The notes beneath the pieces were generated by a model. That model saw nothing but the letters and a program-made list of their open reading frames with translations, was not told the origin of the DNA and ran no database searches. A DNA stretch of 64,000 nucleotides, taken from Natronorubrum tibetense GA33 (GTDB lineage Archaea; Halobacteriota; Halobacteria; Halobacteriales; Natrialbaceae). The stretch covers positions 379,133 to 443,132 of the forward strand of contig NZ_KB913017.1 in the NCBI RefSeq assembly GCF_000383975.1, written 5' to 3'. Positions 48,096 through 56,843 of this stretch are shown here, in pieces. The position numbers were made by a program, and so were the translations under genes. Positions within the stretch are counted from its first letter, which is position 1. Every line of letters starts with the position of its first letter.

Positions 48096-48161
48096 ATGCA
48101 GACCACTCGCCCGCACCGGCTGGCACCGACCGCTTGCGGAGGTGAGCCGTCGTGGAACTGA
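48096..48161 (+). CDS. Possible 21-codon leader ORF overlapping the topA start
   Basis: ATG 48096 opens a 21-codon frame (MQTTRPHRLAPTACGGEPSW onward) that ends ten bases into topA, in a different frame. A weak TATA-like AAGCGTTATC lies near -30 of this ATG. A strong Shine-Dalgarno, GGAGGTGA, lies inside it. The same layout (leaderless-type mini-ORF, then Shine-Dalgarno and gene) is seen before the NmrA gene. Translation is not proven; the peptide is basic rather than acidic. Confidence 0.35.
   Translation: MQTTRPHRLAPTACGGEPSWN
48138..48145 (+). promoter_or_regulatory. Strong ribosome binding site of topA
   Basis: GGAGGTGA, six bases before the GTG at 48152. It decides the unusual GTG start of topA (the GTG gives MELIITEKDNAARRI, the family beginning). 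Confidence 0.75.
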
Positions 48162-50695
48162 TCATCACGGAGAAGGACAACGCCGCGCGACGGATCGCCG
48201 ACATCCTGAGCGGGGGCACGTACGACTCGAGTCGCGAGAAGGGCGTCAACGTCTACGAGTGGGGCGGCAAGCGCTGCGTGGGGCTGTCGGGTCACGTCGT
48301 CGGCGTCGACTTCCCCTCGGAGTATTCGGACTGGCGAGACGTCGAACCCGTCGAACTCATCGACGCGTCGGTTGAGAAGACGGCCACGAAGGAGAACATC
48401 GTCGCGACGTTGCGGATCCTCTCGCGGAAGGCGACCCGCGTGACGATCGCGACGGACTACGACCGCGAGGGCGAGTTGATCGGAAAGGAGGCCTACGACA
48501 TCGTCCGCGACGTCGACGAAGAGGTCCCGATCCGACGCGTTCGGTTCTCCTCGATCACCGAAAACGAGGTCCAGAACGCGTTCGACGAACCGGACGATCT
48601 CGACTTCGATCTCGCGGCCGCCGGCGAAGCCCGCCAGATCATCGACCTCATCTGGGGGGCCGCACTCACGCGATTCCTCTCACTTTCGGCCGGCCAGCTC
48701 GGAAACGACTTCATCTCCGTCGGCCGCGTGCAGTCGCCGACGCTCAAGCTGATCGTCGACCGCGAGCGCGAGATCGAAGCCTTCGACCCCGAGACGTACT
48801 GGGAACTGTTCGCCGACCTCCGGAAGCGCGAGGGCGAGACGGAACCCTTCGACGCGCAGTACTTCTACCGCGACGAGGACGGCAACGAGGCTGAACGCGT
48901 CTGGGAGGAGACCGCCGCGAGCGAGGTCTACGAGACCCTCGCCGAGCGCGACAGCGCGACGGTCGTCGACGTCAACCGCCGAACGCGCACCGACACGCCG
49001 CCGACGCCGTTCAACACGACCCAGTTCATCCGCGCGGCGAGCGCGATCGGCTACTCGGCGAAACGGGCGATGTCGATCGCCGAGGACCTCTACACGGCCG
49101 GCTACATCACGTACCCGCGGACCGACAACACCGTCTACCCCGACGACCTGGACCCGGAGGAACTGCTCGACGACTTCGTCGGCCATCCCACGCTGGGCGA
49201 CTCGGCCGAGAGCCTCCTCGAGTCGGACGACGAAATCGTCCCCACCGAGGGCGACGAGGAGACGACCGACCACCCCCCGATACACCCGACCGGCGAGATT
49301 CCGTCCCGCGGCGGCGACGTGAGCGACGACGAGTGGGAGGTGTACGAACTCGTCGTGCGCCGATTCTACGCGACGGTCGCCGAGGCAGCTATTTGGGAGC
49401 ACCTCAAGGTCGTCACCGAGGTCGACGACTACCGGCTCAAGTCCAACGGCAAGCGCCTCGTCGAAGCGGGCTACCACGACGTCTATCCCTACTTCAACAG
49501 CACCGAGAACTTCGTCCCCGGCGTCGACGAGGGGGAGGAACTCGACCTCTCGGAAGTCGAACTCGAGGAGAAAGAGACCCAGCCACCCCGTCGATACGGC
49601 CAGTCGCGGCTCATCGAGACGATGGAGGATCTGGGAATCGGGACGAAGAGTACTCGTCACGACATCCTCGAGAAACTGTACGATCGGGGCTACGTCGAGA
49701 GCGATCCGCCGCGACCGACGCGCCTCGCGATGGCCGTCGTCGGAGCCGCCGAGGACCACGCCGACCGCGTCGTCAGCGAGGAGATGACGGCCCAACTCGA
49801 GGCCGACATGGACGCCATCGCGAGCGGCGAGGCGACGCTCGACGACGTCACCGACGAGTCCCGTGAGATGCTCGAGGAGATCTTCGCCAATCTCGCGGAG
49901 TCGCGCGAGGAGATCGGCGACCAACTGCGCAAGTCGCTCAAGGACGACAAGCGGCTGGGTCCGTGTCCCGAGTGCGGCGAGGACCTGCTGGTCCGACGCA
50001 GCCGCCACGGCTCGTACTTCGTCGGCTGCGACGGCTATCCCGACTGCGAGAACACGCTCCCGCTGCCGTCGACCGGCAAGCCGCTGATCATGGAAAGCGA
50101 GTGCGAGGACCACGGCCTGAACGAGGTCAAAATGCTCGCTGGCCGCCAGACGTTCGTCCACGGCTGTCCGCTCTGTAAGGCCGAGGACGCCGGCGAGGGC
50201 CCCATCCTGGGGACCTGTCCCGACTGCGGCGAAGACAGCGCGACGACTCCGTCGTCGCGAGACGGAGGCGGTGAAACCGCCGAAGAAGGCGGCGAACTTG
50301 CCATCAAGACCCTCCAGAGTGGCTCGAGACTCGTCGGCTGTACCCGCTATCCGGATTGCGAGTACTCGCTGCCGCTGCCCCGGCGCGGCGATATCGAGGT
50401 TACCGACGAGCACTGTGAGGAGCACGAACTCCCCGAACTCGTCGTCCACAGCGGCGACGAGCCCTGGGAACTCGGCTGTCCGATCTGTAACTACCAGGAG
50501 TTCCAGGCCCGCGAGAGCGAGACCGGCTCGGATCTCGAGGCGCTCGAGGGCGTCGGCGCGAAAACCGTCGAGAAACTCGCCGACGCGGGAATTGAGAGTC
50601 TCGACGATCTGACGGATGCCGATCCCGACACCATCGCTGCGGACGTCGACGGCGTCAGCGCCGAACGCGTCCGGTCCTGGCAGGCCAAGGCCTGA
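48152..50695 (+). CDS. topA: DNA topoisomerase I (type IA)
   Basis: An 847-residue type IA enzyme that relaxes negative supercoils. The TOPRIM domain begins ELIITEKDNAARRIADILSG and includes IATDYDREGELIG (DxDREGE). The active tyrosine is Tyr321 in GYITYPRTDN. After the core come zinc fingers: CPECGEDLLVRRSRHGSYFV...C, CPLCKAEDAGEGPIL...C and TRYPDCEYSLPLPR with CPICNYQEF. The C-terminus carries a helix-hairpin-helix, LEALEGVGAKTVEKLADAGI. GTG start with a strong ribosome binding site. The gene context is otherwise plain. Confidence 0.95.
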   Translation: MELIITEKDNAARRIADILSGGTYDSSREKGVNVYEWGGKRCVGLSGHVVGVDFPSEYSDWRDVEPVELIDASVEKTATKENIVATLRILSRKATRVTIATDYDREGELIGKEAYDIVRDVDEEVPIRRVRFSSITENEVQNAFDEPDDLDFDLAAAGEARQIIDLIWGAALTRFLSLSAGQLGNDFISVGRVQSPTLKLIVDREREIEAFDPETYWELFADLRKREGETEPFDAQYFYRDEDGNEAERVWEETAASEVYETLAERDSATVVDVNRRTRTDTPPTPFNTTQFIRAASAIGYSAKRAMSIAEDLYTAGYITYPRTDNTVYPDDLDPEELLDDFVGHPTLGDSAESLLESDDEIVPTEGDEETTDHPPIHPTGEIPSRGGDVSDDEWEVYELVVRRFYATVAEAAIWEHLKVVTEVDDYRLKSNGKRLVEAGYHDVYPYFNSTENFVPGVDEGEELDLSEVELEEKETQPPRRYGQSRLIETMEDLGIGTKSTRHDILEKLYDRGYVESDPPRPTRLAMAVVGAAEDHADRVVSEEMTAQLEADMDAIASGEATLDDVTDESREMLEEIFANLAESREEIGDQLRKSLKDDKRLGPCPECGEDLLVRRSRHGSYFVGCDGYPDCENTLPLPSTGKPLIMESECEDHGLNEVKMLAGRQTFVHGCPLCKAEDAGEGPILGTCPDCGEDSATTPSSRDGGGETAEEGGELAIKTLQSGSRLVGCTRYPDCEYSLPLPRRGDIEVTDEHCEEHELPELVVHSGDEPWELGCPICNYQEFQARESETGSDLEALEGVGAKTVEKLADAGIESLDDLTDADPDTIAADVDGVSAERVRSWQAKA

Positions 50696-50979
50696 TACTG
50701 TCTACCGTGAGTCATTTTCGGTGGGACCGCAACCGTCCTGCGGTCTCACCGGGAGATCGGTACAGCAAACCGTATGAGACGCTCGCGACGAACTCGTTTT
50801 CGACGGAGTGAACGACGGATTCCGTCCTGTGCAACGCTCCCAGCGGCGCTATCGCCGGTGTAGCGTCCCGTTGGAAACCAGTCATTCAGAGATAGAATTA
50901 ACTTGGTGTGTCCGTATGCACAACTATCTGCGCGACGACGTGTGGTTCGCTCACGCGCGTCGTGACACGGGTTGGATAC

Positions 50980-53900
50980 ATGACAGGGAACGACACGACG
51001 CCGACCGATCTCCAGTTGGACGACCAGGGCGACGGAATCGAAGTGACCGTCGGAATCACGCAACTCGAGGCCTTTCTGACGGCCGACGATCCCGAGGTCA
51101 GGGAGTACGCCGCCAAGACGCTGGCGAACGAGGCCACGGAGCGACCGGACGACGTCCGTTCGGCCGTCGAGGCGCTGACAGATCGCCTCGAGGACGATCC
51201 CGCCATCAGATCCCACGCGGCCGCGGCGCTGTCGGCTCTCGCTACGACCCATCCCGCGGCGATCCGAGACTCGGTATCGGCGCTGACCGATCGACTCGAC
51301 GGCTCGACGACGATCCGAGCGGACGCGGCGGACGCGCTCGCCGCCGTCGCGGATGACGAGCCCCGGATCGTCGCCGACTCGACCGATGCACTCGGAACCC
51401 ACGTCACCGACGAGAACGAACGCGTTCGCGTCCGGGCGACGGACGCACTCGCCGCGATCGCCGACGCCGACCCCGAAACGGCCGCGACGGTCGTCGTCGA
51501 CGTGGCCGAGGCGACCGACGACGAGACGGCTGCCGTCCGCGAGAATACGACGGCGATCCTCGCCGCGGTCGCGACGAACAGCCCCGAGGACGTGCTCGAG
51601 ACGATCACGCCGCTCGTCGACCGGCTCGACGACGAAGAGGCTATCAGAGCCAACGCAATGCGTGCCCTCCGGGCGATCGCCCTCGAGGCGCCGGAGGCGG
51701 TCGCGACCGAAGTCGACCCGCTCGCCGACAGGCTCGCGGACTCGCAGGTGGGAATCCGGACCGACACCGCAATCGCCCTCGCCGCCGTCGCCGCAGAGCG
51801 CCCCGATGCAGTGGGCGAGGCCGTCGAACCGCTTGCGGACAGGCTCGACGACGTCTCCGAGGTTCGTAGCGAGACCATCCGAGCGCTCCGTGATGTCGCG
51901 GAGAACGATCCCGTCGCCGGCGTTCCGGCGGTCCCGGAACTCGTCGAGCGACTCGAGGACTCCCGAGCAGGCGTGCGAACGGACGCGGCCGGAGCGCTGT
52001 CGGCCGTCGCGTCGAAGCGACCGACCGCGGTCACCGATGCCGTCGTGGCGCTTGCTGACTGGCTCGAGGAGGGGTCGCCGGAGCTCCGAGCGCACGGCGT
52101 CGCGGCTATCGCAGCCGTCGCGTCGAAGCGACCGACAGCCGTCGAACCCGTGGTAACCGACGTTGCGGGCGTTCTCGACGACGAAGACGAACTTGTCCGT
52201 CTCGACGCCGCTCGCGCCATCGCGGCCGTCTCCGAAGCCGCGCCCGATGCGGTCCGGCCGGTCGTCCCGGATCTCGCCGATCGACTCGACGATCCGCACG
52301 AACCGGTGCGCCACCGCGCGGCTGACGCCCTGAGCGCCATCGCGCTCGAGGCCGGCGAGGCCGACGACGACCCCGACGTCCCCGCGCTGGTCGACCGACT
52401 CGACGACGGCGACGAGTGGGTCCGTGGGTACGCGGCTCGCGCACTCGCCGAGGTGGCCAGCGCGCAGGTCGCCGACGCCCACCCGGCGATTCGGTCGCTG
52501 TGCCGACGGCTCGAGGACGACGCGGCCCCGGTTCGCCGGGCCGCAACGCGTGATCTGGTCACCGTCGCGTCCGAGGAGCCGAACGACGTTCGCGTCGCTG
52601 TGCCCGCACTCGGCGACCGGTTGAGCGACGACGACGCGACGGTCAGGAACAACGCGGCGATCACGCTCGGACGACTCGCGGAGCGCTATCCGGCCGACAT
52701 CCGCGAGGCCGACGTACTGGTGTCGCTGTTCGGCGCGCTCGACGACGAAGACCGAACGATCGCGGCGACCGTCCGAAACATCCTTGGGACGATCGTCTCC
52801 GATGGGGGGGACGACTGTCGACCACCGCTGGCGCTCGCGATCGAGGCGACGACTGCCGACGAGGAACGGGTCCGGGTGGCCGCCTGCGAGGCGCTTGCAA
52901 CCCTCGGCGCGGACACCGGTGAGGAAACCGTGGCCGTGATCGATGCGGTCTGTGAGTTACTGGTCGATCCCACGCCGGCCGTTCGCGCCGCCGCGCTGTC
53001 CGCGCTCGAGTCGACGCTCTCGGCGGATATCGACACCGAACCAACGCCGATCGACGCCGTCCTCGAGGTCCTCGAAGCGGGCGACGAGCGCGTGGCCGCC
53101 GTCGCCGACGGACTCGCCGACATCGTCCGGAGCGATCCGGAACTCGTCGGCGACGCCGCCACACCGCTGCTGGAGCGATTCGACGCGGCCGAGGGCCGCG
53201 AACGACGGGCGCTCCTGTCCGTGCTGACGACGGTCGTCGAAGCGGGCGACGGCAACCCCGTAACGGGACTGCTGCTCGACCGACTCGAGAGCGACGGGGA
53301 TCGACGCGCGATCGCCGGTGAAATCGCTCGACTGGCCGCGACGACGCCCGACGATGTCGTCGCCGAACGGGACCGGTTGTGCGCCCTTCTCGAGGCCGGC
53401 GCGGCCGGAGACGACGCGAACGGTCGGTCTGGGCCCGGCCACGACGAGGCGATTCGCGGCTACGCCGCGCTCGCGCTCGGCACGCTCGCAATCACCGGCC
53501 ACGACGACGGCGAGACGCTGGGATCGGCGCTCGAACACGTCGACGATCGCCTGCTCGACGCCGCCTCGCTTGCGACCGGCGGCGAGACGCCGACCCACAC
53601 CGACGGCATCAACAAACAGCTCTCGGGGATGGGACGGCGGCTGGACGGCGATCCCTGGGCGGCCGGCCTCGCCGTGCTTGCACTCTCCGTGCTGGCCGAC
53701 GAGTCCGACAGTCTCCGACCGACCGGCGTCGCGAAGATCGCTGACGGACTCGGGGTCGAGAACCCGGTCGTCCGGGTCACCGCCGGACGCGTCCTCGAGA
53801 CAATGGCGGCCGACGATCCGACGGGGTTCGAGGAGGCGCTCCCTGCGCAGGTCGACGCGCTCGAGGACTCCGACGGCGACGTCCGGGCGACCGCGGCGGC

Positions 53901-55269
53901 CGCGCTGGCCGCGTGCGCCGAAGCCGACGCCGGGCCCAGTCTCGAGGACGCGACCGGCGACCACCTCACGCCGCTCCGTCGATCGCTCGCCGATCCCGAC
54001 GGCCGCGTTCGAGGCCGTGCCGTTCGGATGCTCGCGGCGCTCGAAGATACCGACTCGCTGCCGGCTATCGAGGCGCTCGCCGACGATCCCGTGCCGAGCG
54101 TCGCCGAGGCGGCGTCGAACGCGACGACGCGACTCGAGGCCGTACAGGAGCGCGACGCCGACGAAGACGACGAGGTTGGCACGCCAGACTGGCCGATGGT
54201 CCGCGGGGGACCGACGCGTACCGGCCACGTCGCCGGCGAAGCGCTCGACCGGCGAGCGAGCGAACGGTGGCACGTTGACTGCGACGACGATGTCGACATC
54301 GAGACCGCGCCCGCGCTCGTCGGCGAGACGGTCGTCGTCGGGCGCGACGACGGCAGCGTGAGCGCGCTGGCGATCGAGGACGGCCACGAACACTGGCGGT
54401 TCGAGGCCGGCGGCCCGGTCAGATCCGAACCGGCGGTCGTCGACGGGACGGTGTACGTCGGCAGCGACGACGGCGCCGTTTACGCGCTCGACGCCGAGAC
54501 CGGCGAGCGCGCCTGGCGCTATCAGACCGACGGTCGCGTCCGAACCGCACCGATCGCCGTCGACGGGACGGTCTACGTAGGTAGCGACGAACTCCACGCG
54601 ATCGACGCCGAAACCGGCCAACCCGTCTGGACCGTCGATCTCGAGGCCGGCACCGAACGCGAGGCGCTCGTGGGGCCGACGATTGCGGACGGAACGGTGT
54701 ACGCCGCCGTCGACGACCGGCTGTTCGCGGTCGCGGCCGCCGACGGGAGTCCGCGCTGGGAGACGACCCTCGAGACAACCATTGGAACGACGCCGGCCGT
54801 CGACGACGGCCGGGTGTACGTGACCTGCGGCGAGACGCTGGTGGCGGTCTCGAGCGCCGACGGCTCCCGCGAGTGCCGGTTCGACACCGGCGGTCGGATC
54901 GAGACTCCACCCGCCGTCGCCGACGGGACGGCCTACGTCGCCAGTTCAGACGCTAGCGTCTACGCCGTCGACGCGGCGACGGGAATCGAGCGCTGGCGCG
55001 TCCCCGTCGGTCAGGTTACGACCGACCTCGCCGCGATCGACGGAACCGTATATCTGGGCGTCGAGGGCGAGAGTCTCACCGCGCTGGGGACCGCAGACGG
55101 CACGCGACTGTGGCACCACCAGTGTGAGGGTCCCGTCTCGTCGCTCGCCGTCGCCAGCGGTCGGCTCTGCGTCGTCGGCGAGGCCGGGATCACGACGATC
55201 GGTGACTCGAGCGCGTCGCTGACGGACTCCATTTCCGGGCTGTTCACGCGGCTCGGTGGGGATCGATAG
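50980..55269 (+). CDS. Giant HEAT-repeat plus PQQ beta-propeller protein (1,429 aa)
   Basis: A multidomain protein of unusual build. Residues about 20-1060 are tandem HEAT/PBS-lyase-type helical repeats of roughly 38 residues, on the order of 25 copies, with a pattern like AVEALTDRLEDDPAIRSHAA and ALSALATTHPAAIRDSVSAL. Residues about 1067-1429 are a PQQ-type propeller: DWPMVRGGPTRTGHVAGEAL, then repeated VDGTVYVGSDDGAVYALDAE-like blades. No signal peptide, Tat motif or membrane helix is seen, so it is probably cytoplasmic, which is unusual for a PQQ propeller. ATG 50980 is chosen over the open frame from 50908. Likely a scaffold; its ligand is unknown. Confidence 0.87.
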   Translation: MTGNDTTPTDLQLDDQGDGIEVTVGITQLEAFLTADDPEVREYAAKTLANEATERPDDVRSAVEALTDRLEDDPAIRSHAAAALSALATTHPAAIRDSVSALTDRLDGSTTIRADAADALAAVADDEPRIVADSTDALGTHVTDENERVRVRATDALAAIADADPETAATVVVDVAEATDDETAAVRENTTAILAAVATNSPEDVLETITPLVDRLDDEEAIRANAMRALRAIALEAPEAVATEVDPLADRLADSQVGIRTDTAIALAAVAAERPDAVGEAVEPLADRLDDVSEVRSETIRALRDVAENDPVAGVPAVPELVERLEDSRAGVRTDAAGALSAVASKRPTAVTDAVVALADWLEEGSPELRAHGVAAIAAVASKRPTAVEPVVTDVAGVLDDEDELVRLDAARAIAAVSEAAPDAVRPVVPDLADRLDDPHEPVRHRAADALSAIALEAGEADDDPDVPALVDRLDDGDEWVRGYAARALAEVASAQVADAHPAIRSLCRRLEDDAAPVRRAATRDLVTVASEEPNDVRVAVPALGDRLSDDDATVRNNAAITLGRLAERYPADIREADVLVSLFGALDDEDRTIAATVRNILGTIVSDGGDDCRPPLALAIEATTADEERVRVAACEALATLGADTGEETVAVIDAVCELLVDPTPAVRAAALSALESTLSADIDTEPTPIDAVLEVLEAGDERVAAVADGLADIVRSDPELVGDAATPLLERFDAAEGRERRALLSVLTTVVEAGDGNPVTGLLLDRLESDGDRRAIAGEIARLAATTPDDVVAERDRLCALLEAGAAGDDANGRSGPGHDEAIRGYAALALGTLAITGHDDGETLGSALEHVDDRLLDAASLATGGETPTHTDGINKQLSGMGRRLDGDPWAAGLAVLALSVLADESDSLRPTGVAKIADGLGVENPVVRVTAGRVLETMAADDPTGFEEALPAQVDALEDSDGDVRATAAAALAACAEADAGPSLEDATGDHLTPLRRSLADPDGRVRGRAVRMLAALEDTDSLPAIEALADDPVPSVAEAASNATTRLEAVQERDADEDDEVGTPDWPMVRGGPTRTGHVAGEALDRRASERWHVDCDDDVDIETAPALVGETVVVGRDDGSVSALAIEDGHEHWRFEAGGPVRSEPAVVDGTVYVGSDDGAVYALDAETGERAWRYQTDGRVRTAPIAVDGTVYVGSDELHAIDAETGQPVWTVDLEAGTEREALVGPTIADGTVYAAVDDRLFAVAAADGSPRWETTLETTIGTTPAVDDGRVYVTCGETLVAVSSADGSRECRFDTGGRIETPPAVADGTAYVASSDASVYAVDAATGIERWRVPVGQVTTDLAAIDGTVYLGVEGESLTALGTADGTRLWHHQCEGPVSSLAVASGRLCVVGEAGITTIGDSSASLTDSISGLFTRLGGDR

Positions 55270-55333: not shown

Positions 55334-55948
55334 ATGAGCGACGACCGCGAGCGGTGGAACGAGAAGTACAACCGGGTCGAGTGGAGCCTTCCTGACACCC
55401 CAATCCCCGAACTCGAGCGACGGCTCGCGACCCTGCCGGACGGGCGCGCACTCGACGTCGCGACCGGTACCGGGCGGAACGCACGGTTTCTCGCCGCCAA
55501 CGACTACGACGTCGACGCCGTCGATATCTCCGACGTAGCGCTCGATGACGCACGGGCCCGCGCCGAAGAACGCGACCTCGAGGTGAACTGGATCCGGGCC
55601 GACCTGGCCGAGTTCGATCTGGAGACCGACGCCTACGACGTGATCACGGTGAGTTTCTTCGCGGCGCTCGAGCACCTGCCCGCGCTCAAGGAGGCGTTGG
55701 CACCCGGCGGCGTGCTCGTCTACGAACACCACCTGCGCTCGAGCGACGCGGTCGAGGTGGGTCCCTCGAGCGAGCGGTTTCAGTACCGGTCGAACGACCT
55801 CCTCCGGGCGTGTCTCGACCTGACGATCCTCTCCTACGAGGAACGACGGCGACCGGTTTCCGGCGGTATCGCCGCGGTCGCGACGCTCGTGGCTCGGAAC
55901 TCGAGCGGTGGTACCCAGTCGTACCCGAAGCATCCGGCGCGCGACTAG
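55334..55948 (+). CDS. Class I SAM-dependent methyltransferase (204 aa)
   Basis: A short methyltransferase. RALDVATGTGRNARFLAAND is the SAM-binding motif I near residue 37, VDAVDISDVALDDARARAEE motif II, VNWIRADLAEFDLETDAYDV motif III, and VITVSFFAALEHLPALKEAL the acceptor loop. The N-terminus SDDRERWNEKYNRVEWSLPD is that of tellurite-resistance/UbiE-like small methyltransferases in haloarchaea. Substrate unknown. Its last four bases overlap the end of the convergent thioredoxin-like gene. Confidence 0.85.
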   Translation: MSDDRERWNEKYNRVEWSLPDTPIPELERRLATLPDGRALDVATGTGRNARFLAANDYDVDAVDISDVALDDARARAEERDLEVNWIRADLAEFDLETDAYDVITVSFFAALEHLPALKEALAPGGVLVYEHHLRSSDAVEVGPSSERFQYRSNDLLRACLDLTILSYEERRRPVSGGIAAVATLVARNSSGGTQSYPKHPARD

Positions 55949-56628
55949 TCCTGAGAATCGTCTGCCGTTTCGTCGCCGTCATCCATGGATCCCTCGTCGC
56001 CGTCTTCCTCTCCTTCGTCGTCCGTCGGTTCCTCGCCGTCGCCGTCCGTCTCTCCGTCGTCAGCCGACGCCTGCGCCTCGAGTGCGTTCTCGACGCCGGA
56101 GACGATGTTCCCCGCTGTCGTGCCGCCTTCGTTGCGCCAGTGGACCTCGCCATCGCCGTCGATGGCGATCAACGTCGGGAGGACCCGAACGTTGTAGTAG
56201 TCGTTGAGCACGCCGCGTTCGTCGATACCGACCGTCCAGTTGCCGTCGTGTTCGTCCCACCAGTCGGCCAGTTCCGCCGGCGAGTTCATCGGGCCGGCCG
56301 AGTCGTCGAAGAGGGATATAACGTCGACGTCGGCCTCGGCGGCCTCGAGTTCGGCTCTCGCCTCGTTGATCGCGGGCAGCAACCCCAGACTGGTCGGGCA
56401 ATCCGTCCGGGTGAAGTTGATGAGTATTACCTGCCCCTCTCGCGGAATCGTGACGGTTCCCGCTTCGCTACCGGGTGCGTCGAGAGTTTGGAGTTCGAAC
56501 GGCGGCGAGTCGTCGATCGTTTCGCTTTCGCTTTCGTCGGCGGAATCGTCGTCTCCGCTGTCGAGGCAGCCGGCACAAGCGATCGAAACGGTCCCCGCGC
56601 CGGCGATCACGAACTCCCGTCGTCTCAT
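55945..56628 (-). CDS. Thioredoxin-like (TlpA/redoxin) lipoprotein with a CPTS site
   Basis: A 227-residue secreted redoxin. The signal is MRRREFVIAGAGTVSIACAG with lipobox Cys21. The thioredoxin fold begins QVILINFTRTDCPTSLGLLP; the active site is C77-P-T-S80 in place of CxxC, and the cis-Pro loop NVRVLPTLIAIDGDGEVHWR follows. The C-terminus is a long Asp/Glu tail. It is probably anchored outside the cell membrane. A single active-site cysteine argues against ordinary disulfide exchange; a monothiol or structural role is possible. ATG 56628 is preferred to the GTG three codons upstream. Confidence 0.85.
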   Translation of the reverse strand: MRRREFVIAGAGTVSIACAGCLDSGDDDSADESESETIDDSPPFELQTLDAPGSEAGTVTIPREGQVILINFTRTDCPTSLGLLPAINEARAELEAAEADVDVISLFDDSAGPMNSPAELADWWDEHDGNWTVGIDERGVLNDYYNVRVLPTLIAIDGDGEVHWRNEGGTTAGNIVSGVENALEAQASADDGETDGDGEEPTDDEGEEDGDEGSMDDGDETADDSQD

Positions 56629-56843
56629 CGCGACCACCGTCCGTCATTCGGATCCGATTTCGACACGCGCTCGAAACGGCCGGCGCTCTCGAGTCCGATC
56701 CGGCGCCCTCGGTGTCTCACAATAGTTCACTCTTGGACGCTGGTACCAAAGAATCAACGGTCTCGACCAGCTCACTGAGCGGCTACCGGAACCCACGTAG
56801 CAGTGTTCGGGTGATCGTTCGCTTCGATCCCACATTCTCACAC

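Follow-up and report, generated by a model that had tools for sequence, protein, structure and literature searches.

A solitary haloarchaeal gene joining a HEAT solenoid to a PQQ-like propeller: a candidate cytoplasmic scaffold in the Natrialbaceae

What might a haloarchaeon do with a single chain in which a long solenoid of HEAT repeats runs into a PQQ-type beta-propeller, with no sign that the product leaves the cytoplasm? The gene in question, called here the fusion gene, occupies 50980..55269 on the forward strand of a 64,000-nucleotide stretch of the Natronorubrum tibetense GA33 genome (contig NZ_KB913017.1, positions 379,133 to 443,132), which we refer to as the window and whose numbering is used throughout. 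Its reading frame is open from an ATG at 50980 to a stop at 55269 (1,429 codons), and an in-frame GTG lies upstream at 50908. A preliminary description of this DNA had singled out the gene and proposed a large cytoplasmic assembly platform. Our analysis favors, at a probability of roughly 55%, a cytoplasmic scaffold that has no enzymatic activity, holds its clients with two binding hands and probably takes part in regulation, stress or quality control.

Both halves of the 1,429-residue protein are recognized by Pfam models. HEAT_2 (E=7e-47) matches in seven stretches that take up the greater part of the chain as far as residue ~1,050, Beta-prop_ACSF4 matches with E=1e-55 (190 bits, against a curated cut-off of 133), and PQQ_2 matches the C-terminal end with E=7e-46. 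AlphaFold2 models were built at a depth of one to three sequences, residues 1-667 from three and residues 601-1429 from a single sequence. The first model is a helix-pair solenoid with a mean predicted local distance difference test score (pLDDT) of 82, exceeding 90 for most of 31-420, and 17 HEAT pairs were counted within residues 38-661. The second continues the solenoid by about 11 more helix pairs, modeled with low confidence, followed by a propeller of eight blades, mostly at pLDDT ~85-93, of which the last two are less regular. The HEAT solenoid thus spans residues ~26-1056 (51055..54147), with about 27-28 units, and the eight-bladed PQQ/BamB-like propeller spans residues ~1071-1407 (54190..55200; PF13570/PF13360). 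In Foldseek searches against the PDB, the propeller matches the designed eight-bladed protein Cake8 (E=2e-23) and BamB (E~1e-22). The union of the two folds, read at first from the letters alone, is therefore borne out by Pfam, AlphaFold2, Foldseek and the single-frame orthologues described below; of its details the overall layout stands, with the end of the HEAT part moved from ~1,040 to ~1056 residues and the lesser regularity of the last two blades added.

The N-termini of the orthologues contain no hydrophobic stretch, twin-arginine motif or lipobox cysteine, in agreement with the cytoplasmic appearance first attributed to the protein, and no export signal occurs in its relatives; an RR pair in one of them, G295, falls inside the frameshifted stretch of that copy. 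The generalization that PQQ propellers are normally exported was too strong. Human ACSF4/AASDH, from the family of the best Pfam match, has a cytoplasmic PQQ-like propeller, and AfsK-type kinases and a Halomicrobium plasmid protein, both considered below, are further exceptions. No PQQ-enzyme model passes its cut-off on the fusion protein. Identification as a PQQ-dependent dehydrogenase was rejected on score (TIGR03075, 70.7 against 480 bits; TIGR03074, 40 against 833) and for want of an export signal. BamB (YfgL) is likewise an eight-bladed PQQ-like scaffold propeller, but it is an exported outer-membrane lipoprotein, and the fusion protein, which scores 151 bits where the model requires 285 and has no lipoprotein signal, was not accepted as BamB. 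The DVU0298 family model, NCBIfam NF045662, gives 150.8 bits against a cut-off of 75, a sum over three stretches of a 213-position HEAT model that the repeats inflate.

Full-length orthologues with 46-88% identity and the same domain order were found in six genera, all Natrialbaceae, a family label that for the carriers rests on the Natrinema hispanicum and N. limicola matches. Of 101 family genomes sampled, 21 carry the fusion gene and about four fifths lack it; in a 293-genome sample of the order, carriers were confined to the family. It is an intact single open reading frame in its own genome and at 22 of the 25 other loci examined, which rules out a frame error or gene-fusion artefact, and relatives show neither a division of the halves between two genes nor an export signal, the two findings that would have told against the preliminary reading. 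Among the three exceptions, the G089 copy has several frameshifts and the G295 copy a single N-terminal one, both of which may be assembly errors; in the third, G095, comparison with the closely related G056 shows that ~1.2 kb have been deleted, which took away the propeller together with the last part of the gene. At the G095 locus (L053:8130-9760), the convergent neighbor of the propeller-less gene is TrkA-like. The ratio of non-synonymous to synonymous substitution rates (dN/dS) is 0.23 against the closest relative and 0.35 against the next, while the neighboring gene topA gives 0.09 and 0.11; non-synonymous sites in the fusion gene thus change about three times faster than in topA. Values of 0.23-0.35 indicate purifying selection on the gene, and it acts on both halves.

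The fusion gene stands directly downstream of topA in nearly all carriers. The most distant genus, g5, is divided in this respect: three of its members have the gene at that site, and another three have it elsewhere. Non-carriers have a clean empty site, in which topA is followed by a TlpA-like or methyltransferase gene, often at about 250 bp. Mapped onto a topA tree with 45 genomes, the presence and absence of the gene require about six changes. The shared site in distant genera, together with the clean join behind topA in non-carriers, points to one ancestral family gene that was lost several times, and the gene is dispensable to members of the family. No neighboring gene travels with it across the genera compared, which gives it the look of a system of one gene that has a promoter-like element and a structured leader of its own.

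A 24-sequence alignment shows that in every orthologue the propeller follows the HEAT part without an intervening domain, and locates conserved patches outside the repeat core at residues 19-60, at 868-920 and at the C-terminus. An N-terminal cap, (I/L)EVT(V/L)GIxxLExFLxADDPEVREYAAxTLA (residues 19-60; 51034..51159), is one of the best-conserved segments of the chain. Between HEAT units lies a conserved non-canonical insert, GGETP(T/S)HTDxINxQLSG(M/L)GRR..DPW (residues 868-897; 53581..53670). The conserved tail, SS(W/L)xxSISGLFTR(F/L)G (55201..55266), is predicted to form a helix after the last blade, placed at 1414-1424 in the AlphaFold2 model with low confidence.

A scaffold is the most likely role because the chain has no catalytic domain and no match to a curated enzyme model, and because it unites two interaction folds. 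We infer that the protein binds other proteins, holds two clients together and lacks enzymatic activity. The ~1,030-residue HEAT superhelix would wrap and flex around one client; the folds nearest to its model are CAND1, transportin/karyopherin and SF3B1, all of them protein-wrapping HEAT superhelices, at low template-modeling scores that are evidence of fold class only. The eight-bladed propeller would offer a rigid surface to a second client. As strongly conserved non-repeat segments, the N-terminal cap, the 868-897 insert and the SGLFTRFG helix are the best candidates for docking sites, and may serve as fixed points of attachment. The gene would act on its own, from its own promoter. Since it is accessory, ancestral yet dispensable, its task is likely to be conditional: probably regulation, stress or quality control, and not core growth. 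Some observations weigh against such a scaffold. Neither neighborhood nor homology yields a partner, and the role is read from fold classes alone. G095 lost exactly the propeller, which is perhaps not needed, unless that gene is simply decaying. The protein was, moreover, modeled in pieces, which give no placement of its domains relative to each other.

The closest relative in layout that we found is WP_153554981.1, a plasmid protein of Halomicrobium sp. LC1Hm (L016:6132-9032) whose chain runs from HEAT repeats through a Ser/Thr kinase to a PQQ propeller. It too is a single chain with an N-terminal HEAT region, a C-terminal PQQ-like propeller and no export signal; its propeller has a similar WP...G entry motif, is 40% identical to that of the fusion protein and is among the best plasmid matches to it (E=3e-41). 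It differs in the Pkinase domain set between HEAT and propeller (PF00069, E=2e-24), in having ~250 residues of HEAT against ~1,030, and in its place within a plasmid kinase cluster, where it adjoins a HEAT-kinase gene and further kinases. The fusion gene could possibly descend from such haloarchaeal proteins by loss of the kinase, in which case the product might be a sensor or regulator, its propeller serving to bind a ligand or a phosphoprotein and the protein either titrating a signaling partner or recruiting one. The resemblance of the propellers and the kinase-rich setting argue for this, as do the PQQ repeats described for kinases of prokaryotes, which in bacteria have been known for a long time (PMC1262709). 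We nevertheless judge it unlikely: a tree of the propellers sets those of the fusion proteins apart as a group (83/84) and gives no support for joining them to the kinase propeller, the HEAT region of the Halomicrobium protein is far shorter, and no Hanks-type kinase scores above the Pfam cut-off anywhere in the genome of the window, which leaves no such kinase encoded there as a candidate partner. The AfsK-type Ser/Thr kinases of Streptomyces have a kinase-linked PQQ-like propeller as well, and the NCBIfam AfsK model matches the fusion propeller at 106 bits, but they contain a kinase and lack HEAT, and the score is far below the cut-off of 1300 bits. A Pfam scan detected no Pkinase domain in the fusion protein, and classification as a PQQ-propeller Ser/Thr kinase, whether of AfsK or of HEAT-kinase-PQQ type, was rejected accordingly. 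The surrounding Halomicrobium plasmid segment (L016:1-10699), in which Ser/Thr kinases share a chain with HEAT and PQQ propellers beside a short TCP-1/cpn60-family protein, looks like a signaling island.

HEAT repeats followed by a C-terminal propeller are also the layout of VPS15 and Raptor. VPS15, a scaffold of the eukaryotic class III phosphatidylinositol 3-kinase complex (PI3KC3), pivots at its HEAT-propeller junction (PMC4281882), and the scaffold favored here would work in a comparable way. VPS15 differs in its WD40 propeller, N-terminal kinase domain and 180-residue linker, none of which the fusion protein has, and Pfam finds in the fusion protein no match to the VPS15 kinase, the caspase-like RNC N-terminal domain of Raptor or a WD40 propeller; the resemblance is one of analogy and not of homology. 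Planctomycetes membrane-coat-like proteins and the eukaryotic protocoatomer similarly combine a propeller and an alpha-solenoid in one chain, and haloarchaeal 'adaptin-like' proteins of the endosomal sorting complex required for transport (ESCRT) carry PQQ-like propellers (PMC10936438). A membrane coat or trafficking adaptor in archaea that resembles COPI, clathrin or the Halo_adaptin ESCRT proteins, and whose contact with membranes could involve the conserved C-terminal helix, is nonetheless very improbable. The order that defines membrane coats is propeller first and solenoid second (PMC2799638), the reverse of what is seen here, and assignment to the protocoatomer class was rejected; Pfam detects no immunoglobulin-like appendage domain, and no Vps4, ESCRT or CetZ gene was seen among the neighbors that were identified. 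We see scant likelihood that the protein is a platform on which a core machine such as the ribosome/tRNA machinery or the proteasome is assembled or checked for quality, as the preliminary description had entertained. HEAT solenoids commonly serve such assemblies, and the folds nearest to the HEAT model include CAND1 and the karyopherins, but no translation or proteolysis genes are adjacent, and the absence of the gene from about four fifths of sampled family genomes, its repeated loss and its threefold non-synonymous rate relative to topA leave a core role unsupported. What survives of the earlier platform is its looser sense, that of the cytoplasmic scaffold preferred here. A component of a defense or conflict system, in which a HEAT and propeller repeat protein recognizes invaders, would suit the patchy distribution, and PADLOC returns weak HEAT matches (OloA, 1.5e-14; HEAT-ARM_XIII, 3e-11) of the kind expected of any HEAT protein. 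We give this explanation hardly any credence, however, as there is no effector or nucleoside triphosphatase domain and no defense neighbor, and as the stable syntenic site by topA and the vertical pattern of loss are unlike island hopping.

Upstream of the gene, sequence alignment and pattern scans identify a promoter-like element, AGAGATAGAATTAACT (50888..50903, forward strand; consensus GGnGRTAGAATTAACT). This 16-bp element, ~75-90 nt before the start codon, is recognizable in all 24 orthologues examined, 19 of which share the exact core TAGAATTAAC. The sequence around it has otherwise diverged, and it is kept even where the gene lies away from topA. In pattern scans it occurs once in the genome of the window and is therefore not a regulon motif. 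Between element and start codon, per-sequence folding predicts a leader hairpin (50929..50967, forward strand), which in relatives retains its position while its sequence changes. Measured against dinucleotide shuffles, the leader has a mean folding z of -1.05, and the sequence preceding the element one of -0.09; single leaders are mostly not significant, and the related sequences are not independent. Conservation of leader structure is accordingly suggestive. In Haloferax volcanii 72% of protein-coding transcripts are leaderless, and translational control by structured leaders has been reported as untypical in haloarchaea (PMC4983044).

The neighbors, as first noted, do not reveal the function; comparison of neighborhoods was carried through, and gave no co-occurring gene. 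On the forward strand, topA (DNA topoisomerase I; 48152..50695) lies upstream and a class I S-adenosylmethionine-dependent methyltransferase of TehB-like type (55334..55948) downstream, both assigned by Pfam and synteny. The methyltransferase stays near topA where the fusion gene is absent, and in other genera the adjoining gene encodes a TlpA-like redoxin, TrkA or a lipoprotein. Neither gene was retained as an operon partner, given the position away from topA in the three g5 genomes and the varying downstream genes, and we do not think topA a functional partner. In those genomes (L060, L061 and L062) the fusion gene, with its upstream element, stands beside AIR-synthase-like and DUF2062-like genes, named by eye from sequence.

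We found no paper on a haloarchaeal HEAT-PQQ fusion, and as far as the literature was searched the protein is undescribed. It offers a clean and genetically tractable example of a large, probable solenoid-propeller scaffold in archaea: a single gene outside any operon, naturally present in some genomes and missing from others at the same syntenic location, with one species from which the propeller has been deleted. Should the protein prove to organize partners, layouts of scaffold regarded as eukaryotic would be seen to arise also in ordinary haloarchaea. Its structured leader and the promoter element that occurs once in the genome are a further peculiarity open to experiment, set against the largely leaderless transcripts of Haloferax volcanii. 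A bolder version, in which a one-gene archaeal scaffold with a kinase-free chain, dedicated promoter and structured leader RNA independently reached the VPS15/Raptor layout and organizes an undescribed signaling or membrane process in Natrialbaceae, strikes us as doubtful, and quite unlikely as a whole.

Two further features of the surroundings were noticed. A TlpA-like redoxin lipoprotein is encoded at 55945-56637 on the reverse strand, and many relatives have two diverged copies flanking the methyltransferase. The topA frames of G016, G051 and G057 are ~1,365-1,383 codons long, with the match broken near residue 501, which suggests that topA in these genomes carries an intein.

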